Below are positions 15,464-37,307 of a stretch of 64,000 bases of DNA, in pieces. The stretch covers positions 62,001 to 126,000 of the forward strand of contig QFXE01000001.1 of the NCBI GenBank assembly GCA_003349915.1, written 5' to 3'. The position numbers and the translations under genes were made by a program. The notes under the pieces were generated by a model. The model was not told the origin of the DNA. It saw only the letters and a list, made by a program, of their open reading frames with translations, and did no database searches. The stretch's first letter is position 1. Each line of letters begins with the position of its first letter. Source of the DNA: an endosymbiont of Escarpia spicata. Its GTDB lineage: Bacteria > Pseudomonadota > Gammaproteobacteria > Chromatiales > Chromatiaceae.

Positions 15464-16243
15464 TTACCGGGCACGCTTGAGACTGTTCTTGCCGAAGTTG
15501 GAGGATTTCAGGCCAGTGCGAAACTTGTAATCCTCCCAGGTGAGCAAGGTACTCTTCCCGGTTTGGTGGTTCTGCATGAACATTTCGCTGGCCCGCCAGT
15601 AGCGATCGAGATACTGCTTGTAACTCTTGAATTCCAGAGTTTTCAGCAATGCTTTTTTGCGGTCATAGAGCTCGATCTTCAACGGGATGTATTCTGCCTT
15701 GTCGACCCATACCATCTGACGGGTGTAGCCGGAGTTGGGGTCCACGGGATAGCGTTCCTGAACCAAGACATCCTTGCTGTTGAGCTGTTCATCGCGGATA
15801 TATTTGTAGGTGTACTTCTCCACCTCTTGGGACGATAGATCCTCGTAAGCGAACTCACTGCCCATGAAGGGACCGGATTTGTTTCGCGATGCGATGCGCT
15901 TCACCCGTTTGAGCGCCGGGAGGTAGAGCCATTGGTCGTCCGAGCCTGTCTTGTGGGAGTAGCTCAGCAGGGCGGTGCCTTTTACATCCCGTGGGCGATC
16001 AAAGATGATCAGCGTCTTGTCACCATCATTCTCAACCTCCAGGGCGTTGGTGCGCATGTGGCGGAGGCTCTCCTCCCCGTGTTTATTGCGCAGCAGCATG
16101 GTCATGGTGGCTTTGAAGTCGTGGAAGCCGGTATCGCGGCGATCCACTTCCCTGACGATCTCCAGGCCCTGCTCTTCCGGAGTCATGGCGTTACCGGTTA
16201 GCGGCAGCAAGCTGCAGAGAACGATGAGCAGCAGTCGTTTCAT
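15464..16243 (-). CDS. Outer-membrane lipoprotein-sorting (LolA-like) periplasmic protein
   Basis: A 259-residue protein with a signal peptide (MKRLLLIVLCSLLPLTGNA, cleavage before MTPEEQ). The core (KTLIIFDRPRDVKGTALLSY, QWLYLPALKRVKRI, GSEFAYEDL) is diagnostic of the LolA-like family that travels with MMPL exporters. It should bind a lipid or hydrophobic cargo in the periplasm. Its ATG overlaps the MMPL stop by four bases (ATGA at 16240-16243), so the two are co-translated. The longer frame to 16411 lies inside the MMPL gene and is rejected. Confidence 0.9.
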   Translation of the reverse strand: MKRLLLIVLCSLLPLTGNAMTPEEQGLEIVREVDRRDTGFHDFKATMTMLLRNKHGEESLRHMRTNALEVENDGDKTLIIFDRPRDVKGTALLSYSHKTGSDDQWLYLPALKRVKRIASRNKSGPFMGSEFAYEDLSSQEVEKYTYKYIRDEQLNSKDVLVQERYPVDPNSGYTRQMVWVDKAEYIPLKIELYDRKKALLKTLEFKSYKQYLDRYWRASEMFMQNHQTGKSTLLTWEDYKFRTGLKSSNFGKNSLKRAR

Positions 16244-18522
16244 TTTGTTCGGCCTCCGAAGAGTATCAACAAGGGTGGCAGGAAAAGGAAGTCGGCAAGC
16301 AGGGCCAATCCGATGGTAATCGAAGTCAGCAGACCCATGCCGGCATTCAATTGGAAGTGGGAGAGGGCGAGGATGGCAAAACCCAGCATCAGCACAAACG
16401 AGGTGACCCATAATGCCGTACCGACGGTGGAGAAGGCGTAGCGCACGGCATCTTCGGCATTCATACCCTGCTCCCGGCGGGCGCGCAGAAACTTGCTGAG
16501 AAAGTGTACTGTGTCATCAACCACGATGCCCAAGGTCATGCCGCTGACTACCGAGAGGGCAAGCCCAACCTCTCCTACCAGCAGTCCCCATAGACCAAAG
16601 GCCGTGCCGATGGGTACCAGATTCGGTAGCAGGCTCAGTCCACCGATGCGCAGGGAGCGGAAGGCAAGGATAAGAATTGCGGAGATCATCACCAGCGCCA
16701 CAGTGGTGCCCTTTAGCATGGAGCGGATGTTCCTGTTGCCGATGTGGGCAAACATGATACTGGGGCTGGCGCCATCTGCTTTCATACCGGGTGCGTTTGC
16801 TGCCAGCCATTGTTGCGCGCTCTCTTCTATGGCCAGCATTTCCTGGGTGGAGATGCTCTCCAGCGTGACGATGAAGCGTGTGGCCGATTTCCTGACGTTG
16901 ATCTGGTTGTTCAGATCCAGTCCGAAGGGAAGCGAGAACTCATAGAGCAGCAGATACTGTGCAGACAGGTCGCGTTTGTCCGGCAGGCGATACCACTCAT
17001 CGTCGTCCGCATGCATGTTCCGATTGAGCCGTTTCATGATGTCCGTAAGCGTGTTGACGTGCAGGACGTTGGGTTGCTGCCGGTACCACTGGGCAAATGC
17101 TTCGACATTGCGGAGAAATTCAGGATTGCTGACCCCGCCTGCCTCTCCGGAATCGAGTGAGTATTCGATCAAATAGATGCCGGTCAGATTGTCCGTCGCA
17201 AAATCAGTGGCGGTTCTGAATTCATTGGTTTCATCAAAATATTTGACGAACTGGTCGTCCAGCCGGTTGTTGGGAATCTGCGCTATCAGGAACAGAATTG
17301 AGCCACCTACCACCCAAAGCAGCTTGATTTTATGCCGGATCACGAACTCTGCAAGGTGCATCATCGCTCTGCTTCCGCGTGAATCAGCATTCATCGCCTT
17401 GACCGGCAGGATCATCATCATCGCCGGCAGCAGAGTGATGGAGAGGATGAATGCCAGGACGACACCCATTGCAGCCATATTGCCGAGATCCCGGAACGGC
17501 GGAGCATCGCTGAAATTCAGACTCATGAATCCGATAGCAGTGGTGATCGTGGTGAGAAAGATTGGCTGCAGATTGATGCGCAGGCTCTCCAGCAACGCTT
17601 CCCGTTTGGCCAAACCAACACGCATCCCATGCAGAAAATTGACCAGTATATGTACACAGTCGGCTATTGCCAGAGTCATGATGACAATGGGTACGGTGGT
17701 GGTCGGAGGAGAGAGTTTAATATTAATCCAACCAGTGATTCCCATGGTGCCGAGTATCATCAGGATGATGACGATCAGGGTTGCAAAAGTGCCCGGAATC
17801 GAACGCAGCATCAGTGCGAGGGTGATCAATACCGCGACGAACATGGCCGGGTAGAGCGTTTTCATGTCTTTTACTGATGCTGCCGGGAAGGCATTATTTA
17901 TCATCACCATGCCGGTGAGGTAGATCTTGATATGAGGATATTTCTGCTCGATCTGCTGCGCCAGTTTTTGGGCTGCCCCGGCAACTTCAGGTACCTCGGT
18001 GAGCTTTTTTTCCGCTAGCTGTATCGTTACGTTGACACCCGTGACATGCGCCTTGGGTGAGATGAGACGATGCACCAGGAGCGGGTCATTCACGGCGATT
18101 TCTTGAGCCCGTAGCAGATCCTTATCTGACAGGCTGTCAGCCTCGCGGATCAGGTCGTCAACCACAAGATCATCGCCTTCGGCATAGGTATGTTGGAAGT
18201 TGGTGACGGAATCGACGCGCAGGGAGTAGGGAATCTGCCAGGCTGCCTTGGTCAGTTCCTCAACGGCGCTCAAGGTTTTACGGCTGAACACCTTGCCGTC
18301 TTTTGGCGCGAGCACAAACAGTACGTTGTCGTTTTTTGCGTAAGTGTTCTGCAGTTGTTCAAAAGCGGTCAGTTGCGGATTCTCTTCGCTGAAGAACATC
18401 CGGTAGTCGTTGCTGAACTGCAGGTTTTTCATCCCGGCAGCCATGGCGAACGTTACGATAAAGGTCAATAGGATGACCAGATACTTCCTGTCCAGAATGA
18501 AGCGGAAAAAACGCTCTTTCAT
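16240..18522 (-). CDS. MMPL/RND-superfamily exporter
   Basis: A 760-residue inner-membrane transporter with 12 predicted helices in two repeats. Each repeat has one helix, a large periplasmic loop (residues about 40-220 and 430-590) and a five-helix block. The TM4 acidic motifs are clear: IADCVHILVNF (first half) and GIVVDDTVHFLSKF (second half), which relay protons in RND pumps. The architecture is that of the HpnN/MmpL-like exporters that move lipids between membranes. ATG 18522 (MKERFFRFILDRKYLVILL) is preferred to the frame start at 18615, which overlaps the TetR gene. The TetR gene lies directly upstream on the same strand. Confidence 0.93.
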   Translation of the reverse strand: MKERFFRFILDRKYLVILLTFIVTFAMAAGMKNLQFSNDYRMFFSEENPQLTAFEQLQNTYAKNDNVLFVLAPKDGKVFSRKTLSAVEELTKAAWQIPYSLRVDSVTNFQHTYAEGDDLVVDDLIREADSLSDKDLLRAQEIAVNDPLLVHRLISPKAHVTGVNVTIQLAEKKLTEVPEVAGAAQKLAQQIEQKYPHIKIYLTGMVMINNAFPAASVKDMKTLYPAMFVAVLITLALMLRSIPGTFATLIVIILMILGTMGITGWINIKLSPPTTTVPIVIMTLAIADCVHILVNFLHGMRVGLAKREALLESLRINLQPIFLTTITTAIGFMSLNFSDAPPFRDLGNMAAMGVVLAFILSITLLPAMMMILPVKAMNADSRGSRAMMHLAEFVIRHKIKLLWVVGGSILFLIAQIPNNRLDDQFVKYFDETNEFRTATDFATDNLTGIYLIEYSLDSGEAGGVSNPEFLRNVEAFAQWYRQQPNVLHVNTLTDIMKRLNRNMHADDDEWYRLPDKRDLSAQYLLLYEFSLPFGLDLNNQINVRKSATRFIVTLESISTQEMLAIEESAQQWLAANAPGMKADGASPSIMFAHIGNRNIRSMLKGTTVALVMISAILILAFRSLRIGGLSLLPNLVPIGTAFGLWGLLVGEVGLALSVVSGMTLGIVVDDTVHFLSKFLRARREQGMNAEDAVRYAFSTVGTALWVTSFVLMLGFAILALSHFQLNAGMGLLTSITIGLALLADFLFLPPLLILFGGRTK

Positions 18523-18569
18523 TTTGTTTCCGTTGATTGTGATTATTGTTTGATTTATATGTTTATGGG

Positions 18570-19163
18570 TCAGGTTCCCAGACTGTCCAGATAATTTAAA
18601 ACACCTTTCCCGCACTGCAACAGCACTGCTTTGTCTTGGGCATTTTTTGCCATGCTCATGCAGCCTTCCAGCATCGCCACGATAAAAAGTGCGGTCTCCT
18701 CCGGATCGACCTCCTTCCTTACCTTACCAAGCTGCTGACCGTTTTGCAGTGCAGAAGAGATGGTTTGTAACCAGAGTTTATACAGCGCGTCGGTTCGTTC
18801 CCTGAACCCTTGATCAATGGGAGACATCTCCTGGGCCAGATTGTTCAAGGGGCAGCCAAGCCGGATGTCCCTCTCATTCAACTGTTCGCCGGCTTTGATC
18901 AGACAATCCTTCAACTGCGTAACCGGGTCACCCGTTGCCTCGGCCAGCGGTTCGAGCCAGAGGGTACGCAAATGGTCACTGATTACCTCTTTCAGAACAG
19001 CATAGCCCAGCTCTCTTTTGCTGCCGAAGTAATGATAGAGTGCACCTTTGGTAACCCCAGCATTGTCGAGTATTGCCGTCAGACTGGCGGACTGGAAGCC
19101 CTTGCGGTGAATCTCATGAAATGCAGCGTTCAGCAGTACCTGGCGTGTCGTATCAGGTTGCAA
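18570..19163 (-). CDS. TetR/AcrR-family transcriptional regulator
   Basis: A 197-residue regulator with the TetR helix-turn-helix at residues 6-50 (LTAILDNAGVTKGALYHYFGSK) and a ligand-binding helical domain after it (GCPLNNLAQEMSPID, near residue 100, places it among the TetR_C groups seen with YxaF/LmrA-like proteins). The start is TTG 19163, because an in-frame stop lies two codons upstream and no ATG is available before the HTH. It is the first gene of the minus-strand export cluster and probably represses it and itself through the palindrome at 19192-19209. Confidence 0.92.
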   Translation of the reverse strand: MQPDTTRQVLLNAAFHEIHRKGFQSASLTAILDNAGVTKGALYHYFGSKRELGYAVLKEVISDHLRTLWLEPLAEATGDPVTQLKDCLIKAGEQLNERDIRLGCPLNNLAQEMSPIDQGFRERTDALYKLWLQTISSALQNGQQLGKVRKEVDPEETALFIVAMLEGCMSMAKNAQDKAVLLQCGKGVLNYLDSLGT

Positions 19164-25550: not shown

Positions 25551-26450
25551 ATGATGAATAAACTGCAATCTCAAATCCGTCTTAACAACTCATTTGATCA
25601 CGTTGAAGTTAAATATGAACCTGAGTACAACGCGGTTTGGGCGAAATTACAGTACCCAGGGCGTCCCTGCATGAGTAAGGGATTGCTGGATGATGTTGCC
25701 AGGGCGCAGCAGCTGATTCGTGAATCTGCCAGCTACGGACATAATACCGGTGACGAAAATCGTTTGCGCTATCAGGTATTGAGTTCGGCGACCCCAGGGG
25801 TTTTCAATCTGGGGGGTGACTTGGCTCATTTTATCGACCTGATTGAGCGTAAAGACCGTGAGTCCCTGATGGCATATGCAAAGTCCTGTATCGATATTCT
25901 CTATCCTTCATCGATTGGTTATGGCCTGCCATTTACGACAATTTCCCTGGTGCAGGGAGAGGCGCTGGGAGGTGGCTTTGAGGCTGCGCTTTCCACCAAC
26001 GTGCTGATTGCAGAAGAGAGCGCAACTTTTGGTTTTCCGGAAACGGTTTTCGGCCTCTTTCCGGGGATGGGTGCCTTTAGTTTTCTCGCCAGACGCATGG
26101 CACCCGCACTGGCAAAACGTGTGATTGCTTCCGGAAAAGTCTACACGGCGTGGGAGCTGCATGAGATGGGGCTTGTTGATGTGGTTGCTCCAGATGGCAA
26201 GGGTGAAGAGGCGGTCAACAGCTATATTAAGCACCAGCAGAATCGCTCAGCCGGATTTGTCTGTCTTGATAAGATCATGGACCAGTTTAATCCGGTTACC
26301 TATGAAGAGTTGATGAAGATCACCACGATGTGGGTCGATGCGGCGATGGGGCTGAGCAAGAAAAACCTGCGACTCATGGATTATCTGCTACGCGCCCAAG
26401 AGCGGCGTTGGGGAGTAAAAGAAGATCTGATGTGTCAGGCTGTGGGCTGA
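25551..26450 (+). CDS. rpfF: RpfF-like DSF synthase (enoyl-CoA hydratase family)
   Basis: A 299-residue crotonase-fold protein that matches Xanthomonas RpfF. The segment ALGGGFEAAL followed by FPETVFGLFPGMGAFSF keeps both catalytic glutamates (E144 and E164 here, E141 and E161 in Xanthomonas). NLGGDLAHF near residue 86 also fits. RpfF dehydrates 3-hydroxyacyl-ACP and releases the acid by thioesterase action to make cis-2-unsaturated DSF signals. It is convergent with an RpfC-like kinase and overlaps its end by 16 bases, the same order as in Xanthomonas. No rpfB is adjacent. The chain length or branching of the product cannot be read from the sequence. Confidence 0.9.
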   Translation: MMNKLQSQIRLNNSFDHVEVKYEPEYNAVWAKLQYPGRPCMSKGLLDDVARAQQLIRESASYGHNTGDENRLRYQVLSSATPGVFNLGGDLAHFIDLIERKDRESLMAYAKSCIDILYPSSIGYGLPFTTISLVQGEALGGGFEAALSTNVLIAEESATFGFPETVFGLFPGMGAFSFLARRMAPALAKRVIASGKVYTAWELHEMGLVDVVAPDGKGEEAVNSYIKHQQNRSAGFVCLDKIMDQFNPVTYEELMKITTMWVDAAMGLSKKNLRLMDYLLRAQERRWGVKEDLMCQAVG

Positions 26451-28996
26451 GAACGTTTATCTCCAGCTACTGAGCGTGTTATCAGTTCCTGTTTCAGGAT
26501 TGATTCTGCGCGGCTGAATGCCGTTTCAATTGACGTCAGCGTATGCGCTCCCCTGTTGTTGAGCGCCAAGTCGTCTACTTGATTGGCATCAGTTGAAGCA
26601 CTGGTGAGTTCTTGCAGGCCAAGATAGGCCGCGGTTCCTTTCATTGCGTGGGCCGAGTCTTTGAAATCAGAGGGGTTGTTGGCGGAGAGTGCTTTGTTCA
26701 TTGCACTGATCAGTTGCCGACCGTCGCGTAGAAAGTTGTCTACCAAGCGTTCAAGAAAGTCGTTGTCCTGACCCAGGTTGATGACCTCATCAAGCACCCT
26801 GCGATCGATGATCGTGGGCACGGCGTCTATCGCTTGAGGCTGTGTAATCGAGCTCAACTCAATGGGGGCTGCTTTTTCTGGCCCTGTATGAGTAGCTTGA
26901 GCAATGGTGTCCAGGAGTTTCGATGAAGAAACGGGTTTTGTCAGGAAAAATTGAATACCGGCATCTTCACACTCCTGCCTGGCTTCCAGTGTGGCGTTGG
27001 CGGTTAGCATGACAAATGGGACGTTTGCATCCACACCATTGGCGAATCGGTACATCTTGAAGGTGTCGAGTCCACCGAGAACCGGCATCTGCATATCGAC
27101 AATGACGAGATCGAACGGCGCACTCTCCAAGGTATCCAGTATCTCCTGACCGTTTTCGACCAGTTTGAATTGGTGTCCTGCTAGTTCGAGCATTCTTCCC
27201 ACCACCATGCGATTTGTCGAGTTGTCCTCGCCGACAAGAATACGCTGCTTTGTTAAGTCGTCCTGGCTGTTGACGGTTTTCGCCTTCAAGTCTACGACAT
27301 GCTCTTGTTCAGCCCGGTTTGCATGGGCGGCATGCAGTGCGTTGAAGAGTATGGATTTGTCAACGGGAGAAGGGAGAGTTGAGATAAGGCTGGTAACCTC
27401 GTCCAATGGGAATATCGGCACACCATCGGGCAGTATGACCAAAATGTCGAAACTGTCCATTGCAAGTTCGTCACGGAAGGATTCAAGCAGTTCCCGCATC
27501 TGCTCGTCTACTGGGACTTGATCGATAATTAATAATTGATAGGGTGCCTGTTGACGATTTTCTCCGAGTATGAGCCGAAACATCTCTCGCGAGTTCTGGA
27601 CATCCTGAAAGGAGACTCCCCACTCTCGAAGGTACTTTCCGGCTATCGTCTTTACGCCGGTTTTTTCGCAAAGCCGGATTACCCGGCAGTTTTCCAATTG
27701 CGTGTCTATGCCGGCTTTGGCAGGGGGTGAACTGGATTTGAATTCGATATCGAACCAGAATGTCGTGCCGACATCAGGTGTGCTTTCCAGTCCAATTTGT
27801 CCACCCATCAATTCGACCAGTTGCTTGGCGATGGCGGTTCCGAGGCCGCTACCACCAAAACGTCGGGTGGTGCTTTCATCAGCCTGGTTGAACTTATCGA
27901 AGATGGTCGCCTGCTTCTCTTGTGGAATACCAATTCCACTGTCTATGACCTCGAAATGGATCAAAGCCTGTTTTTCAATGAGATGAGTTAAATGGCAGCG
28001 TATCTCGACGGTTCCCGTAGGTGTGAATTTGATCGCATTGCCGATCAGGTTGATCAAAATCTGACGCAGATGTAAAGGGTCGCCTATGAGCAGGTGAGGA
28101 ATTTCAAGGCTGACATTATTGATTAAACGTATATTTTTCTGTTGCGCCTGCGGAGATAGCATGCGCATGGTGTGAGTAATCAGTTCATGCAGATCAAATT
28201 GTGTCTGTTCGAGGATGAGTTTTCCTGCTTCAATCTTTGAAAAATCAAGTATGTCCTCAATGAGCATGAAAAGCGTTTGGCCTGAATTGGCAATGGCATT
28301 GGCATATTCACGTTCTTCCGAGGGAAGATCGGAGCACTTCAATAGCTCACTGATACCAATAATTCCGTTTAGAGGGGTTCTGATTTCATGGCTCATACGG
28401 GCGAGAAAATCACTTTTTGCCCGGTTAGCGTCCTCAGCGCGTTTGCGTTCTTTATGAATGCGTCTGATGAGTACGGCGGCGTACCCCGGTAATACCAGAA
28501 AAGATGCAAGCAGCCCCAACCCCAGGCTTATATGGGAATGCCAGAATTCGTTGGTGGCAATGACGATACTGAAACCGATAACGGAAAGGGCTGTGGAAAA
28601 ATGGAGGTACCTCTCTCCGTAGCGAAACCCGTTGCCGAATGTCACCCATAGATAAAGCCAGACCCAAGGTGCAAGGAGGTCGTTGGTAAAACTCGATACG
28701 ATACTGAAACCAGCAATATCCGACACAATGCTGATGATGCGACGTGGATGGGATACTCCCCGCCAAATTAACGTAGTAATGAAAATTCCGATGGAAAAAA
28801 AGAGAAAACTGGATATCAGGATCGTGGTCAGCGTCCGGGGGTGCTGCAGGGGCAGGTTGCTCGGCCCTGAAAATAACAGATAGAAAAGCACTGCGGATGA
28901 CAGAATGATGCGAACAAGCGCCTGTTCCTGCTCAGAGTTTTCTCTGTCTACAAATATGCGTTTTAGAAATTGATAAATGTCTTTAATAGACTGCAT
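26435..28996 (-). CDS. rpfC: RpfC-like hybrid sensor histidine kinase
   Basis: 853 residues. A five- or six-helix membrane input domain (about 28-178) is followed by HisKA with H203 (SHEIRTPLNG), HATPase (N-box about 316-325, DSGIGI 352-357, GGSGLG 381-386), a receiver-like domain without an aspartate box (about 435-560), a true receiver with D634 (VIVDMQMP) and an Hpt domain with H783 (SAHAMKGTAAYLG). This is the RpfC plan plus one extra degenerate receiver. RpfC senses DSF, passes phosphate to RpfG and binds RpfF to limit synthesis. The gene lies opposite and convergent to rpfF. The membrane domain (GNGFRYGERYLHFSTALSVIG) is clearly shared with the protein at 31899-33857. Confidence 0.9.
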   Translation of the reverse strand: MQSIKDIYQFLKRIFVDRENSEQEQALVRIILSSAVLFYLLFSGPSNLPLQHPRTLTTILISSFLFFSIGIFITTLIWRGVSHPRRIISIVSDIAGFSIVSSFTNDLLAPWVWLYLWVTFGNGFRYGERYLHFSTALSVIGFSIVIATNEFWHSHISLGLGLLASFLVLPGYAAVLIRRIHKERKRAEDANRAKSDFLARMSHEIRTPLNGIIGISELLKCSDLPSEEREYANAIANSGQTLFMLIEDILDFSKIEAGKLILEQTQFDLHELITHTMRMLSPQAQQKNIRLINNVSLEIPHLLIGDPLHLRQILINLIGNAIKFTPTGTVEIRCHLTHLIEKQALIHFEVIDSGIGIPQEKQATIFDKFNQADESTTRRFGGSGLGTAIAKQLVELMGGQIGLESTPDVGTTFWFDIEFKSSSPPAKAGIDTQLENCRVIRLCEKTGVKTIAGKYLREWGVSFQDVQNSREMFRLILGENRQQAPYQLLIIDQVPVDEQMRELLESFRDELAMDSFDILVILPDGVPIFPLDEVTSLISTLPSPVDKSILFNALHAAHANRAEQEHVVDLKAKTVNSQDDLTKQRILVGEDNSTNRMVVGRMLELAGHQFKLVENGQEILDTLESAPFDLVIVDMQMPVLGGLDTFKMYRFANGVDANVPFVMLTANATLEARQECEDAGIQFFLTKPVSSSKLLDTIAQATHTGPEKAAPIELSSITQPQAIDAVPTIIDRRVLDEVINLGQDNDFLERLVDNFLRDGRQLISAMNKALSANNPSDFKDSAHAMKGTAAYLGLQELTSASTDANQVDDLALNNRGAHTLTSIETAFSRAESILKQELITRSVAGDKRSQPTA

Positions 28997-29354
28997 AACT
29001 TGTATAATATCGTTGTGCGCGACTTGGTCGGATAGCGTTGGTCAATAGGTCGATAGTCTTGAGTTTAGGGTATCGTTCCTATATTTAGAGTGTCTGATGA
29101 TGGTATGCGTGTTTCCTCCTTTTGGGGTTGAAGGGTCGCGTATAAGCATATTCCAAGTCTATGCCAGAGAATGCGAAGAAACACTGATATTATAAAGAAC
29201 AACAATATTTATTCTGCATTTCGATGTGAAATATTTAATTCATATTTGCTTTGTATCTCTTCGCAGTGGTTGTTTCAGGACACGACATTGAGGCATTTTT
29301 CGATCATGGCCTCTAATTCGCATATGGTTGGTAATAGTAAAGGTAATCAGAAAG
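28997..29354. promoter_or_regulatory. Divergent AT-rich region between rpfC and the ACP gene
   Basis: 358 bases with no convincing gene. It must hold the promoters for rpfC (minus) and for the ACP-ketosynthase pair (plus). Base composition is visibly lower in GC than the flanking genes. I see no clear -35/-10 pair; an 87-codon frame at 29171-29434 is AT-rich, overlaps the ACP gene in another frame and has no ribosome site, so I do not call it. Confidence 0.4.
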
Positions 29355-29597
29355 ATGAGTCTGGATATAGAAACGGTCGTAATCTCGGCGATCGCCACTC
29401 AAAAGCAGCTGAATACAGCCAGCATAAAACGTGAATCACGTCTTCAGGATTTAGGTGTTTCCTCACTGGACGCAATCACGATTGTCTATGAGGTCGAGGA
29501 GGCCTTCGACGTCGAGATACCTAATGCTGAACTTGAAAAACTGGAAACGGTTGGCGACATCGTGGACGGTGTCGGCAGTCTGCTCGCGGGTAAGTAA
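29355..29597 (+). CDS. Stand-alone acyl carrier protein
   Basis: An 80-residue ACP. The phosphopantetheine site is S37 in LGVSSLDAI, where the usual DSL is SSL; the helix III pattern EEAFDVEIP is standard. It is not the housekeeping acpP, which normally sits in the fab cluster with the DSL motif. ATG 29355 is chosen with AAAGG about 11 bases upstream; an earlier TTG frame start (29328) adds nine non-family residues. It is followed after 5 bases by a ketosynthase, so the two probably act together on acyl chains inside the Rpf island. Confidence 0.9.
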   Translation: MSLDIETVVISAIATQKQLNTASIKRESRLQDLGVSSLDAITIVYEVEEAFDVEIPNAELEKLETVGDIVDGVGSLLAGK

Positions 29598-29602
29598 GTC
29601 CC

Positions 29603-30811
29603 GTGGGCGAACGTATTGTTATTACCGGATTGGGATCTGTTTCCGCGCTTGGTGTGGGCGTTGAGCCGTTTCGTTCGGCATTGCTTGCGGGAACTGCCGG
29701 GATTCGTGATCTCGAAAAAATAGACTGCAGTGGTTTGCGGGTGGTTATTGGTGCCCAAGTACCCCATTTTAAGGCGGCCGATTATCTCGATGAGGCACTA
29801 TTGCCCTATCTCGATCGTTTTTCACAGTTTGCCTTGATTGCAACAAAAGAAGCCTTGAATGATTCTGGGTTAACCGCCGGGCAATATGAGAATGCTGCTG
29901 CGATTATCGGTACAGGTTGCGGCGGAAAGGAGACGGATGAGGCCACCTATTCCCAGCTCTATCGTGATGGGCGATCACGGGTACATCCACTGACGATACC
30001 GAAAGGGATGCCGAGTGCGGCAGCAAGCCAAGTCAGTCTGCAAATGAAGATCAAAGGGCCGGTGTTTTTCGTAACAAGCGCCTGTACCTCGTCCGGACAT
30101 GCCATTGCACAGGCAGCGTTGATGATACGGCATGGTTTGGTTGACGTTGCAATCGCGGGTGGCACTGATGCGCCATTTACCTGTGGACTGTTAAAGTCCT
30201 GGGATATGCTGCGGGTGCTGTCAAAAGATACATGCAGGCCATTTTCCAAGGACAGATCCGGCATGGTGCTCGGAGAAGGGGCGGGTATCCTTGTTCTTGA
30301 ATCAGAACGTCACGCCAAGGCAAGAGGTGCAGACATCTATGCTGAATTAGCGGGTTTCGGCATGTCATCGGATGCGGGGCATATTACTGATCCTTCTGTG
30401 GATGGAGCGGCAAGAACTATCGGGTTGTGCCTGCAGGATGCGCAATTGAGTCCGGCGGATGTGCAATACATCAACGCCCACGGCACTGCGACTCAGGCAA
30501 ATGATGTTACGGAAACGGCAGCGATCAGCAAGATCTTCAAGGAAAACGCCGCTTCTTTAGCAGTGAGTTCAACGAAATCGATGCATGGACATGCGCTGGG
30601 TGCTGCGGGTGGGCTTGAACTGGTGGCGACGGTATTGTCTGTGAAGGAGGGGTTCATACCGCCAACAGTAAATTTTACTGAAGCAGGTGATGGATGCGAT
30701 CTGGATTATGTGCCCAATGAAGTGAGGTTTGGGTCCATTGATGCTGCACTCAGCAACTCTTTCGCTTTTGGTGGGTTGAACGCGGTGCTGGCCGTGCGTG
30801 CCTTTCAGTAA
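29603..30811 (+). CDS. Beta-ketoacyl-ACP synthase (KAS II/FabF family)
   Basis: A 402-residue condensing enzyme. The catalytic triad is complete: C161 in SACTSSGHA, H293 in NAHGTATQAND and H330 in SMHGHALGAAGG. It elongates an ACP-bound acyl chain with malonyl-ACP. It starts at GTG 29603, just after the ACP stop (29597), so the two are one transcript. It is not next to fabG or fabD, so it is a specialised copy. The position between rpfC and a methyltransferase suggests a role in making or modifying the signal or a lipid under its control. It could also serve an unrelated lipid or polyene pathway. Confidence 0.9.
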   Translation: MGERIVITGLGSVSALGVGVEPFRSALLAGTAGIRDLEKIDCSGLRVVIGAQVPHFKAADYLDEALLPYLDRFSQFALIATKEALNDSGLTAGQYENAAAIIGTGCGGKETDEATYSQLYRDGRSRVHPLTIPKGMPSAAASQVSLQMKIKGPVFFVTSACTSSGHAIAQAALMIRHGLVDVAIAGGTDAPFTCGLLKSWDMLRVLSKDTCRPFSKDRSGMVLGEGAGILVLESERHAKARGADIYAELAGFGMSSDAGHITDPSVDGAARTIGLCLQDAQLSPADVQYINAHGTATQANDVTETAAISKIFKENAASLAVSSTKSMHGHALGAAGGLELVATVLSVKEGFIPPTVNFTEAGDGCDLDYVPNEVRFGSIDAALSNSFAFGGLNAVLAVRAFQ

Positions 30812-30830
30812 CAAAAGATGCAGGCGCGTC

Positions 30831-31880
30831 TCAGGTCTTCTTGAAGAGAAACTGGCCATTGCCGAATACTTCACCTTCCATCGGGGCAAAGCAGGCTTTG
30901 CAAAGGGAGAAGTAGTTGTTCCAGTACAGGATATCGTCTGTTGAAAGCTCATCTTGGCTGACGTTATCCATGTTATTCCAGAAACGTTCGTGCCACTGAT
31001 TCAGCGTGCGCCAGTAGTTCATCCCATTGACAAACCAGCCCTGTTCCAGGGAGAAACCACTCTCTTGTTTGGCTATCAGGTCGTAAGGCCAGATTCTCCC
31101 CCCTGGAAAATAGTCTCCAATCAGTGTTTTTTCTGGGGTGAGGAAACGGGGGATAGGGATGCGGGACACAATCAGGTGGTGGAACGCGAAGCCGCCAGGT
31201 TTGGTCAGAATTGCTATTTTTTTAAATAATTCCGCGAGATTTCTTGCATGTTCAAGAACACCAATGGAGAAAACCCTGTCAAATTTTCCAATTCCAAGCG
31301 TCTCTTCGGTGAGATCTGCGAAATCACCCGTGATGAGTTTGAAACGTTTTGATGAAAGGGGATGTGCAGGATCGTTTCTTGCATTGTTGATATAACTGCT
31401 CTGTGTTGTACTGGCTGTGATCGAAGCAATCTGAAGTTGCGGATAGTTTTCTATCAGGTAACGCTCGAAAGAGCCGAATCCGCAGCCGATGTTCAGAATC
31501 TGTTCATCACCCTGGAGTCCTGCTCGTTTGCAGATGGTTTTGAATTTACTTCTCTGCGCCTTTTCCAATGATATTTCTATCGTCGCGGCTGCAGCGCCGT
31601 TTTCGCTGTAGAGCGCCATGGAATAGGCCAGGTATTCGCTATCCAGAAAACTGCGAAAAAAAGCTTCTGACGCGTCGTAATGCTGTGCCATCAGATGACT
31701 TGTGGTTTCCCACATGGGGCCATGAGAGGCGATTTGGATTAATTTCTCGGAGATTTTCTCAGGATTCTCCAACTGTTCCTGATACTCACGGGTAAAAAAA
31801 CGGTTGAGTCTTTTTTCTGTCAGTTTCAGTGCGTCCGAACCAAATGGCTGAACTTTTGGGTCAATCTGTCGTTTTGGCAT
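30831..31880 (-). CDS. Cyclopropane-fatty-acid-synthase family methyltransferase
   Basis: A 349-residue class I SAM methyltransferase. The N-terminal segment HYDASEAFFRSFLDSEYLAYSMALY is typical of the CFA synthase/mycolic acid methyltransferase family; SAM motif I is ILNIGCGFGSFE (about 148-159). The segment VFSIGVLEHARN corresponds to the family acidic motif. The family adds a methylene or methyl group across or onto a carbon chain, but some members methylate small amines, so the substrate is open. It is cytosolic, transcribed with the RpfC-like second gene 18 bases upstream, and convergent to the ketosynthase. Confidence 0.85.
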   Translation of the reverse strand: MPKRQIDPKVQPFGSDALKLTEKRLNRFFTREYQEQLENPEKISEKLIQIASHGPMWETTSHLMAQHYDASEAFFRSFLDSEYLAYSMALYSENGAAAATIEISLEKAQRSKFKTICKRAGLQGDEQILNIGCGFGSFERYLIENYPQLQIASITASTTQSSYINNARNDPAHPLSSKRFKLITGDFADLTEETLGIGKFDRVFSIGVLEHARNLAELFKKIAILTKPGGFAFHHLIVSRIPIPRFLTPEKTLIGDYFPGGRIWPYDLIAKQESGFSLEQGWFVNGMNYWRTLNQWHERFWNNMDNVSQDELSTDDILYWNNYFSLCKACFAPMEGEVFGNGQFLFKKT

Positions 31881-31898
31881 TAATCAGCGGTCAAAGGG

Positions 31899-33857
31899 TT
31901 AGCTGAGATAGGAGCTGGTTTCATCGTCCTTGGAGAGAAATCGCATGAGTGCGTCACTGGTGCGGGTGAAGGTGGCGCGCATCTCCTGCAGGATGTTGGC
32001 ACCATGGGCATCGAATTCGGAAGGAAGTATACGTGATGCGCTGAGGCTGTATTCATAGAGTGCGAATGCCCCCAAGTGTCCTGCGCTGTCCACGAACAGA
32101 TGAGCGAGGTCTTTAAAGAGTTCATTGTCGTTATCGGCAAGGGCCTGATCCATTTGTTGCAGTGTTCTTTCGCTATCGAGAGTGAAGGTTGTAATCAGAT
32201 TGGAGATGAACTGCGGATCGTTCCCGAGTATCTCGAGATTCTTCAGAACGCTGACATCCAGTGTGTCAGCATTGTGGAAACGGGTGGTGATGCTGTCTTC
32301 AGGTGTTGCAGTTGTACTTTCTCTGGTTTTTTCCTGATCAGACGAGATAACTGCAGTAACTGTTTTAACCAACTCGTTTTGTTGAATAGGTTTGAAGATG
32401 CAGGCATCGGCTTCAGCACTTTTTCACTCTCTGATTGTTGCGGGGGAATTCTCGTCTGTTATTACTACAAACGGCATCCATCTGCGCATGGAGTGGGTGA
32501 AATGGTGGAGTTTTATGACCTGAATACCGCTCATGACCGGCATGGAGAGATTGACAATTGCAAGATCGAAATGGTGGCTCTCGAGTGCATCCAGCGCCTG
32601 TTCTCCATTTTCTACTGCGTAGACCCGGTGGCCCTCCTGCTTCAACGCGCGTTCGATGCTGCTTCGGTCGACTGGATTATTTTCGGCAACCAGGATCTCT
32701 TGCGGTGGGAGAGAGCAGGCTTTGAGGTTAAGTCGACTGATCAGGCTGACAACGCTCTTTTCACTATCCTGAATTTCCGGGTTGGCACGCAGGGCCGCGA
32801 ACAGAATGGATTTATTGAGTGGTGTTTCAAGGATCTGTGAGTAGCCAGCCTGGAGGAGTTGTTGGCGATATTGCTCAGGCTGTTTTGGGCCAAGGAAAAA
32901 CAGGGAAGTATTGGCCAGCGCTGGCTCTTCGGAAATGGCCGCAGCGATCTGTAGGGGATCCAATTCCAACTGACGATGGTCCACCAACAGGATATCAAAG
33001 GGTTGAACGCCTTGGGTGTCGGCGTTCACCATCAATCGGTTGAAGGCCTGCATGCTGTTCTGACTCGTCTCGAACGCATGATTCCAGTCGTTGAGATAGG
33101 TGCTGAGGTGCTCCGCATTGGTCGGATTCCTGGAAAGCAGTAGTACCTTGCGATTATTGCTGTGTGCACCTGACTCCGCTTCCAATGCGGATTCTGTGAA
33201 AGGGAATGCCAGATCCACGGTATCCTGGGCACTCTCGATGCCTGTATCTTGTGGAGTCTCCGGAAGTACTTCTTTCGTGGTGATCTCTTCAGAATCCAAT
33301 GGACCCCAGCTATCGCTTCCCACAGCCTTAATGATAGATGCGAGGTAGAGAGAGACGCCGGTTATTCCAGCTAAAGCGCCCATCCCCTGTAACAGATGCT
33401 GAGACCAGAAGGTGCTCGTAATCAGTGCGGCACCGAGACCGAGAATACTGACCGATAGGGTGAAGTAGAGATAGGAGGCGCCAAACCGAAATCCATTGCT
33501 ACTGATGAGCAGTGGATAGAGAAATAGCAGAAACAGACCATTTTTGCAGCTGAAAAAAGTGAGGCAGGAGAGAAAGGCAACATCGGCAATGATGCCGGCA
33601 ATCCGCCGGGAAGACGAGGGGTGTGGGTCGTTAATGATAAAGAGCAACATGGTGGCGGCAAAAACAACGTAACCGGTTGCAAGAATTAACGGTGGAGATA
33701 GCTCGGAACCTGTGTGGCTGAGGTAGGTCTGAATAACCAGCCAGGAGAAAATCGGTAGGGCGACCAGCAGGCGAATGCCTGAATGCTCGATTTCAAAATC
33801 GGGGAATTGATTGAAACCGAAAGGACGTCTGCCGTGGAAGGTGGGCTGATTTTGCAT
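31899..33857 (-). pseudogene. RpfC-like membrane protein without kinase domains, interrupted by UGA (RpfH-like position)
   Basis: From ATG 33857 (AAGGAAAG before it) the frame codes membrane helices (about 30-180), an RpfC-type degenerate receiver (235-360) and a receiver (387-477), then a UGA at 32424-32426, and continues in the same frame through the rest of the receiver and an Hpt-like domain to 31899. HisKA and HATPase are absent. The receiver has N436 where the phospho-acceptor Asp should be; the Hpt retains its His but has lost the following Lys-Gly. Across 28 positions around the UGA the sequence aligns without gaps to the RpfC at 26435-28996, the UGA matching a Cys. In Xanthomonas rpfH, also an input-domain-only RpfC relative, lies between rpfC and rpfG. 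It is likely a decayed or kinase-dead receptor; a 477-residue truncated product is possible. Confidence 0.75.
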
Positions 33858-33916
33858 ATTGCTTTCCTTGGCGCTAAGGAGCTGCTGAACGAGGTATGGA
33901 CGGCAGTCTTGTGGCC

Positions 33917-33939
33917 CAAAAAACGGTCGGGAGCCGTTT
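33917..33939 (-). terminator. Probable terminator downstream of rpfG
   Basis: On the minus strand AAACGG (33934-33939) pairs with CCGTTT (33921-33926) around a 7-base loop and is followed by a run of T (33918-33923). It lies in the 231 bases between rpfG and the RpfC-like gene, which otherwise hold no gene I can support. Confidence 0.5.
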
Positions 33940-34088
33940 CTCATACCAGCCTCGAAAGGGATAAGCGTATGGAATCTTTGAATAAATTCCCATCTGCTGC
34001 GTTAAAAATTTGGGTAATAGGCCGCCTATTGCCCGTAATTTCCGTCTCGCATCGTAAAATTGTATCTCACAACTCTGCATACCCAGTC

Positions 34089-35162
34089 TCATTCAGAGGC
34101 TCCTAAGCCTGTGGCCTGCCTCGGAGCGTCGTCGAGTGAGTCGTGAATCTCGATGACCCTCCCAAAGCGTGTGAGAAATGCCCCCAGACAGTCTGGGTCG
34201 AAATGGCGGCCTTTCTCCTGCTTCAGATAGGCCAATGCTTCGTTTACGCTCCATGCCCGCTTATAAGGTCTTTCCGAAATCAAGGCATCGAAAACATCGG
34301 CAACAGCTACGATGCGTGCCTCTATTGGGATTTTATCTCCTTTTTTTCCGTATGGATAGCCGCTGCCATCGAAATGCTCATGATGGTGGAGGGCGATAAT
34401 CGCGCCCATCTGCAGATATTTGGAAGGGCTCTCACATAAGATATCATGCCCTGCCTGTGAGTGGCTCTGCATGATCTGCCACTCATCGGCCGCCAGGGTG
34501 CCTGTCTTGCGCAGGATCGCGTCCGGGATGGCGATCTTTCCGATATCGTGCATTGGTGCGGCATGTCTGATCAGATGGCACTCATCTTTGGACATGCCGA
34601 TCTCTTCGGCGATGATCTCGCTGTATTGAGACATCCTCAGTACATGATTCCCGGTTTCCTGATCGCGGAACTCCCCTGCTTTCGCTAAACGCAGGAGAGT
34701 CTCCTGTTCGCGCAGATGCAACTCTTCAGTGGTATCCCTGATCTCCCGTTCCAGCCAGGAGGCGCGGTCCTTGATAATCTGCTGTTGACGACGAATTGTC
34801 AGCAGGTTGTGGCACCTGGCCCTGCATTCGGTATGGTCTATCGGTTTTGTCAGAAAATCGGTAGCGCCTGATTCGAGTGCGCGGTATCGCACCGACTTAT
34901 CCTCGACACAAGTGATGATCACAACGGGGATATCACTGCAGGAGGGGATTTTTCTCAGCCATTGGATAAACTCCACGCCATCCATCTGCGGCATTTTGAA
35001 ATCGGTAATGACAAGATCGAACTCGTTGTGTTTGGCCCACTCCAACGCAGAGACCGGGTCGGCAAAGGATTGCGTAGTGACGTCCGGTTCGATTGAACGG
35101 GTGAGCTCCTCCAGTATCATCCGGCTGATGGATTGATCATCGATGATTAGAACCTGGGGCAT
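34089..35162 (-). CDS. rpfG: RpfG-like response regulator, HD-GYP cyclic-di-GMP phosphodiesterase
   Basis: A 357-residue protein with a receiver (1-120, phospho-acceptor D54 in LVITDFKMP) and an HD-GYP domain (about 160-340) with H205-D206 (MHDIGK), HHHEHFDG near 260 and GSGYP at 266-270, all intact. RpfG is phosphorylated by RpfC and then breaks down c-di-GMP, linking DSF to biofilm and exopolysaccharide control. It is the phosphorelay output expected for the RpfC at 26435-28996, here separated from it by four genes. Transcription probably ends at 33917-33939. Confidence 0.93.
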   Translation of the reverse strand: MPQVLIIDDQSISRMILEELTRSIEPDVTTQSFADPVSALEWAKHNEFDLVITDFKMPQMDGVEFIQWLRKIPSCSDIPVVIITCVEDKSVRYRALESGATDFLTKPIDHTECRARCHNLLTIRRQQQIIKDRASWLEREIRDTTEELHLREQETLLRLAKAGEFRDQETGNHVLRMSQYSEIIAEEIGMSKDECHLIRHAAPMHDIGKIAIPDAILRKTGTLAADEWQIMQSHSQAGHDILCESPSKYLQMGAIIALHHHEHFDGSGYPYGKKGDKIPIEARIVAVADVFDALISERPYKRAWSVNEALAYLKQEKGRHFDPDCLGAFLTRFGRVIEIHDSLDDAPRQATGLGASE

Positions 35163-35257
35163 CGCTTAGTCTAACCTCATTGCCAACTCATTGAAAAGTA
35201 GTGCAAACCCAACTTTACCTGATGAGCAGTTTCAGGCAATACCCTATCAGAATTAAA

Positions 35258-35285
35258 GTCACAAATCATGAGTTGCTCATGTGAC
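35258..35285 (-). terminator. Weak terminator-like hairpin after the tandem-receiver gene
   Basis: GTCAC/GTGAC outer arms (35258-35262 and 35281-35285) with an inner ATGAG/CTCAT stem, followed on the minus strand by a short T run. It lies in the 289-base gap between rpfG and the tandem-receiver gene, which holds no gene. Confidence 0.3.
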
Positions 35286-35451
35286 CTTTTTCGTGATCAA
35301 ACAACGATACTGTGGATTTCTGTAAATGGAAGTCTGGGGTCTGGATAAATTCAACTCGTTACAAAAAATAACTCTTGATGGAAGGAATAGGTGGGCATCT
35401 AATATTTCTGTTATTTTACAATGCCTTAGATTAATTTTTTTGTCGTAATGC

Positions 35452-36258
35452 TCAGTTGTTTTCGTCTGCCAGTGTTTTTTCCAGGTAGCGTTTGAGAATG
35501 ATGGGTTCGAAAGGTTTGTCGCAGATGGCAGAAACGCCTGATTGCTGCACGGCAGCAAGACGGCTCTGGTTAGACTCGCTCGTGATCATCAAAATGGGAA
35601 TGGTCGGTTGTAAGCTGTTGTTTCGTATGTAGTCGATAAACTCCTGCCCATTCATTTCCGGCATATTGTAGTCGGTGATGACGAGATCAAAATAGTGGTC
35701 ATTGACCTGTTGTGCTCCCTCGGAGCCATTTTCCGCCTCGGTGATCTGTTCCATGCCCATAGCTTCCAACAGCCTGCGAATATGGTTTCGAGCCATCTGG
35801 CTGTCATCCACTACTAAAATTCTCAATGATTCGGTATCGATATTGTCGAGATGGATTTCGGGCGTTTCGATATAGTCAACGGTCGATTTCAAGGCAATTT
35901 TCAGGTCATCTTCCGAAAAGGGTTTGGGAAGAATGGCGATTGCGCCTGCCTGGCGAATCGGATCCAGAAAGCGGAACCGGGTTTCGCTTGAGATCAGGAT
36001 ATAGGCTGTATCCACGAGTAGTGGTTCGTTACGCATCGTAGTGACCAGATCGGTTCCGGTCATATCGGGTAGATAGAGTGTGCTGATGACAAGGTCTGGT
36101 GGGGTGCGGCGCATCGCACCCAGTGCTGCTTCCCCGGATTCGAAGGTTTCAATCTTGGAGATGCCCAAGCCAGAGAGATAGCCATCAATGATATGCCTCT
36201 GGGTCAATGAAGGCTCGACAAGGATGACGCTGAGGTCACCTAACTCCAATCGGTTCAT
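35452..36258 (-). CDS. Tandem-receiver response regulator
   Basis: A 268-residue protein of two receiver domains and no output domain. The first (about 10-128) has Thr in place of the phospho-acceptor Asp (DLVISTLYLPDM) and is probably not phosphorylated; the second (about 145-262) keeps the Asp (DLVITDYNMPEM) and the lysine of CDKPFEP. Such proteins relay or sequester phosphate, or act by protein contact. The location just upstream of rpfG on the same strand suggests it joins the Rpf phosphorelay, possibly taking phosphate from the RpfC Hpt domain. That is inference. Confidence 0.88.
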   Translation of the reverse strand: MNRLELGDLSVILVEPSLTQRHIIDGYLSGLGISKIETFESGEAALGAMRRTPPDLVISTLYLPDMTGTDLVTTMRNEPLLVDTAYILISSETRFRFLDPIRQAGAIAILPKPFSEDDLKIALKSTVDYIETPEIHLDNIDTESLRILVVDDSQMARNHIRRLLEAMGMEQITEAENGSEGAQQVNDHYFDLVITDYNMPEMNGQEFIDYIRNNSLQPTIPILMITSESNQSRLAAVQQSGVSAICDKPFEPIILKRYLEKTLADENN

Positions 36259-36452: not shown

Positions 36453-37307
36453 GTGAAACTGAGTGTAGGTGACTTCCGGGAATGGGAGCACAAGTGCGTG
36501 ACGCTGATGGGGATGTCAGGCGTTGGAAAGACGCGTCTGTCCAATATTCTGCGTGACAGTGACTGGTTTCACTATTCGGGAGATTACCGGATTGGCACCC
36601 ATTATCTGGATGAGCCGATCCTCGATCATATCAAGGAACAGGCGATGCAGGTGCCTGTGTTGCGGGACCTGCTTCGTTCCGACTCCATCTATATTCGCAA
36701 TAATATCACTGTCGATCATCTCAAACCGGTTTCGATCTTTCTGGGCATGCTGGGTAACCCTGAGCTTGGCGGTATGCCGTTGAGTGAATTCAAACGGCGG
36801 CAGAATCTGCATCGAGAGGCAGAGGTTGCGGCCATGAGGGATGTGCCTGGATTTATCCGTAAGGCACAACGGATTTATGGGTATCGCCATTTCATCAACG
36901 ATGTAGGGGGCAGTCTGTGTGAGTTGGACGAGCCGGGCATCATCGAATTGCTCTCCGAGCATACGATGATACTCTATATTCGGGCTTCGGAGCGTGACGA
37001 GACAGCGCTGATCGAGCGGGCTGTGCGTGATCCCAAGCCACTCTACTATCGGGAGAACTTTCTCGATGAGCAGCTCGATCTCTACTTGCAGGAACAGGAT
37101 CTGCCCTATGTGGCGATGATTGAACCCATTAAATTCGTGCGTTGGGTTTTTCCCAAGCTGTTTCGTAGCCGCATTCCCCGGTATGAGGCGATTGCAAAGG
37201 ATTATGGCTACACAGTAACCACGGACGAGCTTGCTCAGGTCCAGAATGTCGATGATTTTTTGGTCATGCTTGAAGGTGTGATTGAACGTAATTCACCCAG
37301 TGTTTGA
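36453..37307 (+). CDS. P-loop ATPase/kinase of unknown substrate, paired with metA
   Basis: A 284-residue P-loop protein with Walker A GMSGVGKT near residues 20-27, in the shikimate/small-molecule kinase style. The GDYRIGTHY segment follows where a substrate loop would be. No other kinase signature is clear, so I give no substrate. The start is GTG 36453 with AGGAGT about 10 bases before it. metA begins 10 bases after its stop. The pairing suggests a role in methionine or homoserine metabolism, but this is inferred from position alone. Confidence 0.75.
   Translation: MKLSVGDFREWEHKCVTLMGMSGVGKTRLSNILRDSDWFHYSGDYRIGTHYLDEPILDHIKEQAMQVPVLRDLLRSDSIYIRNNITVDHLKPVSIFLGMLGNPELGGMPLSEFKRRQNLHREAEVAAMRDVPGFIRKAQRIYGYRHFINDVGGSLCELDEPGIIELLSEHTMILYIRASERDETALIERAVRDPKPLYYRENFLDEQLDLYLQEQDLPYVAMIEPIKFVRWVFPKLFRSRIPRYEAIAKDYGYTVTTDELAQVQNVDDFLVMLEGVIERNSPSV

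Follow-up and report, generated by a model that had tools for sequence, protein, structure and literature searches.

The closest described counterpart of the locus treated here is the rpf system of Xanthomonas, where rpfF converges with rpfC, rpfH and rpfG, and where the mix of diffusible signal factor (DSF) signals follows substrate supply (PMC4504480). In this system, RpfF acts on 3-hydroxydodecanoyl-acyl carrier protein (ACP), and DSF is described as made through the ordinary elongation cycle, which is required for it (PMC4542539), so that DSF variety would follow what the cell happens to make. Both RpfF and its Burkholderia homologue use 3-hydroxyacyl-ACP (PMC4542539; PMC4504480), and the action of RpfF has been described together with its proposed blocking by RpfR (PMC6361424). 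Links to fatty-acid metabolism have been reported as well: Xanthomonas employs an additional long-chain enzyme of fatty-acid synthesis, FabG2 (XCC0416), to support DSF production (PMC5941067), and the RpfF homologue encoded at the dspI locus of Pseudomonas aeruginosa lies among fatty-acid metabolism genes (PMC4504480).

Here we describe an rpf island at positions 25551-36258 of a 64,000-nucleotide stretch (the window; contig QFXE01000001.1, positions 62,001 to 126,000) from an endosymbiont of the tubeworm Escarpia spicata. As in Xanthomonas, rpfF and rpfC converge, RpfC is a membrane-bound hybrid kinase and RpfG carries an HD-GYP domain; unlike the Xanthomonas locus, the island also holds genes for an ACP, a ketosynthase (KS) and a methyltransferase of the cyclopropane mycolic acid synthase/cyclopropane fatty acid synthase (CMAS/CFA) type. 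All of the genes named in the original prediction are present. That the ACP, KS, CFA-type and rpf genes belong together is well supported. With a probability of about one half, we read the locus as an Rpf variant in which a private ACP/KS module feeds a diverged RpfF and, together with a chain-modifying methyltransferase, yields a non-standard DSF-type signal. The basis of this reading is the gene content, the catalytic residues, the conserved linkage, an RpfF clade, two KS lineages and a radical-SAM gene (SAM, S-adenosylmethionine) in the place of the CFA-type gene. Within it, the ACP-KS pair probably supplies RpfF; a role of the methyltransferase in modifying the signal is more tentative, and the signal made would be an unusual one.

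Linkage of the lipid genes to rpfF and the RpfF clade

The association was followed by a scan of genome contigs, which gave 26 named loci from tubeworm symbionts, Sedimenticola (including S. selenatireducens DSM 17993, L014, with the full cluster) and related metagenome-assembled genomes. An ACP gene lies beyond rpfC in 22/22 of those with contigs reaching that far; in L028 the two are separated by the CFA gene. The contigs of L009, L010, L023 and L024 end in rpfC or no more than about 200 bp past it. The KS gene follows the ACP gene in 21 of these 22, the contig of L015 ending first. A CFA-type gene is found in 15 of the 19 loci reaching its place, the copy of L012 lying 4.5 kb beyond the KS gene; it is not at its place in L008, L011, L013 and L022, and L015-L017 end too early. 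The expectation that the lipid genes would be linked to rpfF and rpfC in related genomes is borne out by these counts.

At the level of the class, 369 genomes were surveyed, and RpfF was found at E<=1e-45 in 66 of them, at 67 places; all 66 places besides the window were annotated with our own hidden Markov models. Within 8 kb of rpfF, 10/66 of these have an ACP gene, 7 a KS gene and 4 a CFA-type gene; the window raises each number by one. Many contigs are short, and the 40 loci with at least 5 kb on both flanks have 6, 5 and 3, respectively. The order rpfF-rpfC-ACP-KS-CFA-rpfG repeats in two other families (f81 and f153; L073 and L074), with rpfG on the opposite strand in L073. A KS of the rpf type (E<=1e-130) occurs in 4/369 class genomes, all with RpfF; in one of them (G271) it is on a separate contig and an ACP gene is beside rpfF (L075, L076). 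Members of the CFA subfamily (E<=1e-60) were found in 3/369 class genomes, which are exactly those with the full cluster. Some genomes of the window's own family have a distant RpfF (41-45% identity) without lipid genes, for example L064 and L067; L064 has the order rpfC-rpfF-rpfC-rpfG plus a tandem receiver gene.

In a draw of 398 genomes from the phylum, RpfF was found in 57 genomes at 58 places, of which 40 were annotated, 32 of them with at least 5 kb on both flanks. With the ACP, KS and CFA models and thresholds used for the class loci, no ACP, KS, CFA or radical-SAM gene was found near rpfF in any of the 40, and the ACP count among the 32 was likewise 0/32. Because of the 0/40 result, the lipid-gene trait is taken as a feature of a branch and not of RpfF in general. 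Chance neighbourhood was rejected as an explanation on the contrast between 10/66 class and 0/40 phylum loci with an ACP gene near rpfF; the rough chance expectation is 2% per locus (five ACP places per 4.06 Mb).

The window RpfF scores 342 bits against PRK08788 (cut-off 177), can be aligned with the RpfF of structure 3m6m, and is 95-96% identical to the RpfF of Lamellibrachia and Escarpia tubeworm symbionts. Against the NCBIfam equivalog model NF053515 it reaches 246 bits, below the cut-off of 550; judged by its sequence, it is a relative of the RpfF modelled there and a different protein. The two glutamates, which we take to be catalytic as in Xanthomonas RpfF, are widely kept, Glu144 in 114/116 RpfF rows and Glu164 in 116/116 (near-duplicates included). 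Among the 40 phylum rows Glu144 is present in all and Glu164 in 32, the remaining 8 having Asp.

In a tree of 94 RpfF rows, from which the short L089 copy was excluded, one clade of 32 rows (Shimodaira-Hasegawa-like approximate likelihood ratio test, SH-aLRT, 99) comprises the window, the named and family loci at least 59% identical to it, L073, L074, L066 and L130-L132. When ACP-positive rows are taken whatever their flanks, and ACP-negative rows only with both flanks of at least 5 kb, an ACP gene is near rpfF in 27/27 judged rows of the clade besides the window (4 contigs too short) and in 3/39 judged rows outside it (23 too short); the rows are related, and these counts are therefore a description and no test. 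Parsimony on the tree requires 4 changes for ACP, 4 for KS and 5 for CFA. All 32 clade members have Gly168 and Tyr278, whereas Asn168 is found in 57 and Arg278 in 59 of the 62 non-clade RpfFs, and in 34 and 39, respectively, of the 40 phylum rows. Position 168 is four residues past the second catalytic Glu, and position 278 is in the C-terminal helical part, where the adjoining residue presumably lines the pocket of Xanthomonas RpfF. The RpfFs of L125, which has an ACP-KS pair, and L124, which has a CFA-type gene, are sisters outside the clade and both without Arg278, which amounts to one event at most.

The carrier-ketosynthase pair and the methyltransferase

The window ACP (open reading frame, ORF, 29328-29597) matches PF00550 with 40.0 bits (cut-off 20.8), and the modifiable serine lies in an SSL motif in this protein and its close relatives. 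The ORF at 29171-29434, which the true ACP ORF overlaps, was rejected as the ACP, having no Pfam match and no ACP features. The KS has KS domains and an intact Cys-His-His centre of the FabF type, and scores 444.8 bits against the FabF equivalog TIGR03150, below the cut-off of 493.75; a second FabF-like KS, 43% identical, adjoins an AcpP-like ACP elsewhere in the window genome. In KS trees, the KSs adjoining rpfF fall in two lineages, one with the window KS and that of G271 (19-23 rows, SH-aLRT 99), the other with those of L084, L125 and L130-L132 (SH-aLRT 99-100). In L130-L132 an RpfF of the window type is combined with a KS of the second lineage, a pairing that suggests the replacement of one KS by another within a lasting partnership.

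KS relatives at E<=1e-112 occur in 38/398 phylum genomes, the window's genome included. Twelve KS contexts without rpfF were examined (L165-L174, L063 and L077), nine of L165-L174 having an ACP match; the KSs away from rpfF are 47-55% identical to the rpf KS and mostly come with an ACP. In 5/12 contexts (L168, L170, L171, L174 and L063) a gene for an LpxD-like acyltransferase lies directly before the ACP gene; the proteins of L171 and L063 lack an LpxD domain match and were assigned from their 38-42% identity to the L168 protein. The remaining seven contexts share no common partner. LpxD takes its acyl chain from 3-hydroxyacyl-ACP, the same kind of donor that RpfF uses. These cassettes thus resemble the island in pairing ACP-KS with a neighbouring enzyme that should draw on 3-hydroxyacyl-ACP, but they have no rpfF nearby, and the rpf KSs form a clade of their own, apart from the KSs of the LpxD-like cassettes. 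The original prediction had named as evidence against itself the case that the lipid genes turn up away from rpf loci, in a lipid pathway of another kind, and this is half seen: the LpxD-like partners are there, yet the rpf KSs stand apart. A possible history is that an ACP-KS cassette at first served an acyltransferase and later came to serve RpfF.

Several further sets were noted. The LpxD-like-ACP-KS cassettes could make unusual lipid acyl chains, and the window genome has another ACP-KS pair (L136; G000:C2:399718-401186) directly after genes matching LpxD, LpxA-type, LpxB and RNase HII. A third, more distant KS (36%; G000:C1:177171-178325) has an ACP at 183894-184058, about 6 kb off on the same contig and outside the window. 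In L155, ACP-KS adjoins genes for a type III polyketide-synthase-like protein and a flavin adenine dinucleotide-binding protein.

The CFA-type protein of the window matches PF02353 with 125.8 bits (cut-off 27) and is the sole match of its kind in the window genome at E<=0.001. It resembles CFA synthase and the mycolic cyclopropane synthases in domain, fold and E/H/I/Y residue set, with E210, H235 and Y289 in 17/17 cluster-type rows and I237 in 16/17 (five near-duplicate loci left out). Unlike Cfa, it falls below the equivalog cut-off (PRK11705, 114 bits against 400), and a housekeeping Cfa was rejected on this score; Met88 stands at the place of what we take to be Cys139 of Escherichia coli. 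The whole fold, N-terminal helices included, is closer to plant N-methyltransferases. The identity of a plant-type N-methyltransferase was rejected although this fold fits that group best, since the active-site residues differ from the solved N-methyltransferase 9whw, which has Glu for Gly207, Glu for His235 and Phe for Tyr289; position 207 is Gly or Ala in cluster members. Carrying the residue set of CFA synthases and not that of 9whw, the enzyme fits a role in modifying a chain.

At the place of the CFA gene, L022 has a gene for a 518-residue radical-SAM protein (L022:13900-15453), whose NCBIfam matches, none of them reaching its cut-off, fall in radical-SAM families that in several cases bind B12. 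It is 57% identical over 510 residues to a radical-SAM protein of L084 (L084:10531-12132), where the order on one strand is radical-SAM, ACP, KS, rpfF. This family is tied to ACP-KS-rpfF sets in two distant lineages, and the collected loci yielded no third copy. That two SAM-using enzymes unrelated to each other share this setting points to a chain-modifying role. The canonical cfa gene beside rpfF in L070 is treated as an ordinary neighbour.

Proposed route and alternative readings

In the proposed route, the KS would condense malonyl units onto a chain held by the dedicated ACP, reduction by the housekeeping FabG would give 3-hydroxyacyl-ACP, and RpfF would dehydrate and hydrolyse this, releasing a free acid with a cis-2 double bond. 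A methyl or methylene group from SAM would be added by the CMAS/CFA-type enzyme, the likeliest site being another double bond in the middle of the chain, either while the chain is on the ACP or in the free acid, and the cognate RpfC would sense the product and act through RpfG on cyclic-di-GMP. The island differs here from Xanthomonas in that FabG2 is a reductase, as opposed to a carrier-plus-ketosynthase pair. Several observations weigh against the route: the CFA-type gene is missing or replaced in some loci, Arg278 is kept in the RpfFs of L084, L076 and L070, and the RpfF of L064 has Ile in place of Arg278 without any lipid genes nearby.

The chief rival, which we hold to be unlikely, is that the three lipid genes serve to produce or alter an envelope lipid under Rpf control and are output genes, not signal makers. 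The LpxD-like neighbours of the related KSs would suit this, L063 also having an LpxB-like gene, as would the CFA gene on the same strand as, and closely spaced with, the gene for a kinase-less RpfC-like protein (rpfC2), the ACP-KS pair on the rpfC strand directly before rpfC in L130-L132, and a gene for an MMPL-family transporter at window positions 16240-18615, about 7 kb before rpfF. The island itself, however, has no detected acyltransferase or other lipid-assembly gene; L066 and L076 have an ACP without KS beside rpfF, rpfF follows ACP-KS on the same strand in L084, and the RpfF protein itself is altered in the linked clade. The special-signal interpretation is supported in part, by the conserved linkage; a signal is the likelier product of the genes, a regulated lipid the less likely one.

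It is improbable that ACP-KS merely raises the ordinary 3-hydroxyacyl supply for standard DSF or Burkholderia DSF (BDSF), the methyltransferase being a separate, loosely linked lipid enzyme: the supply role of FabG2 in Xanthomonas (PMC5941067) and the loci with an absent or replaced CFA gene agree with this, but the class survey finds the CFA subfamily solely in rpf clusters, residues particular to the RpfF clade lie near the active site, and supply alone needs no private ACP. Least credible is an RpfF that serves as the dehydratase/thioesterase of a lipid pathway, with a locus outside quorum sensing. Its low equivalog score would allow for that, against which stand both kept catalytic glutamates, the rpfC and rpfG neighbours in the Xanthomonas convergent order, and the RpfC receiver, which matches many receivers, the one of Xanthomonas RpfC (3m6m_D, E 6e-25) among them.

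Returning to the private-module reading, we put forward, tentatively, a distinct DSF branch, whose autoinducer would come from a type II fatty-acid module set aside for it and be C-methylated or cyclopropanated by an exchangeable tailoring enzyme (CMAS-type or radical-SAM), with RpfF re-shaped (Arg to Tyr, 278) for its private ACP, in use among free-living relatives and tubeworm symbionts, among others. If true, certain bacteria would assemble a DSF word of their own chemistry, as they do other secondary metabolites; this would predict new signal structures, explain the separate RpfF clade, and give tubeworm symbionts and Sedimenticola a testable signal chemistry. RpfC-RpfG has been implied for vestimentiferan symbionts and Sedimenticola, its loss has been reported for the Sclerolinum symbiont (PMC10300362), and RpfC/RpfG have been reported in strain Hiromi 1 (PMC4136832). 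The portions consulted of the open-licence PMC literature give no description of such a locus, with the lipid genes unmentioned.

Island layout and the RpfC-like proteins

The genes of the island are listed in Table 1. The window genome comprises 4.06 Mb in 23 contigs and is a very near relative of the symbionts of the tubeworms Lamellibrachia and Escarpia.

Table 1. Genes of the rpf island, in window positions
Gene product	Positions	Strand	Characters
RpfF-like DSF synthase, crotonase superfamily	25551..26450	+	catalytic E144, E164 kept; clade marks G168, Y278
RpfC-like hybrid sensor kinase	26435..28996	-	membrane part, HisKA, HATPase, receiver, Hpt
Dedicated ACP	29355..29597	+	motif GVSSLDAI; ORF opens 29328; start 29355 inferred from relatives
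FabF-type KS	29603..30811	+	Cys161-His293-His330 intact
CMAS/CFA-type SAM-dependent methyltransferase	30831..31880	-	own subfamily; E210, H235, I237, Y289 as in CFA synthases
RpfC-like protein without kinase	31899..33944	-	membrane part, receiver, Hpt-like piece; pieces 32424-33944, 31899-32372
RpfG-like response regulator, HD-GYP phosphodiesterase domain	34089..35162	-	HDIGK, HHEHFDGSGYP
Tandem receiver protein	35452..36258	-	

The predicted convergence of rpfF and rpfC is confirmed, with an overlap of 16 bp. The ACP and KS genes are 5 bp apart, the CFA-type gene is 19 bp from the KS gene, and the kinase-less RpfC-like gene lies 18 bp before the CFA-type gene on the strand of the latter. Genes hrpB and mobA are upstream of the island; mobA adjoins rpfF where Xanthomonas has rpfB. 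The RpfF also differs from that of Xanthomonas in belonging to the separate clade with Tyr278. Downstream, an ORF of 284 residues without a Pfam match (window 36453-37307) lies between the tandem receiver gene and a homoserine O-succinyltransferase gene. Promoter and terminator scans of the island gave scores near shuffle level. RpfC and RpfG HD-GYP genes adjoin rpfF here, which is the arrangement of DSF/Rpf systems, whereas the dspI cluster of P. aeruginosa is presumably without RpfC and RpfG.

The proposal of a second RpfC-like gene is corrected as follows: its product shares the membrane part of RpfC (29% identity over 122 residues) and has a single clear receiver; an Hpt-like piece scores 20.3 bits, short of the 24.6 cut-off, and the Pfam search gives neither a HisKA nor a HATPase match. 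The gene is also split in the window genome. Xanthomonas also has an extra protein resembling the RpfC input part, encoded by rpfH (PMC4504480), to which the island's protein adds a receiver and an Hpt-like piece. The split is caused by a single in-frame TGA ending at 32424 in the window genome, and the frame is well conserved on both sides of it. Three sister symbiont records are without the TGA and read through, and a plain nonsense change is preferred over selenocysteine as the simpler explanation.
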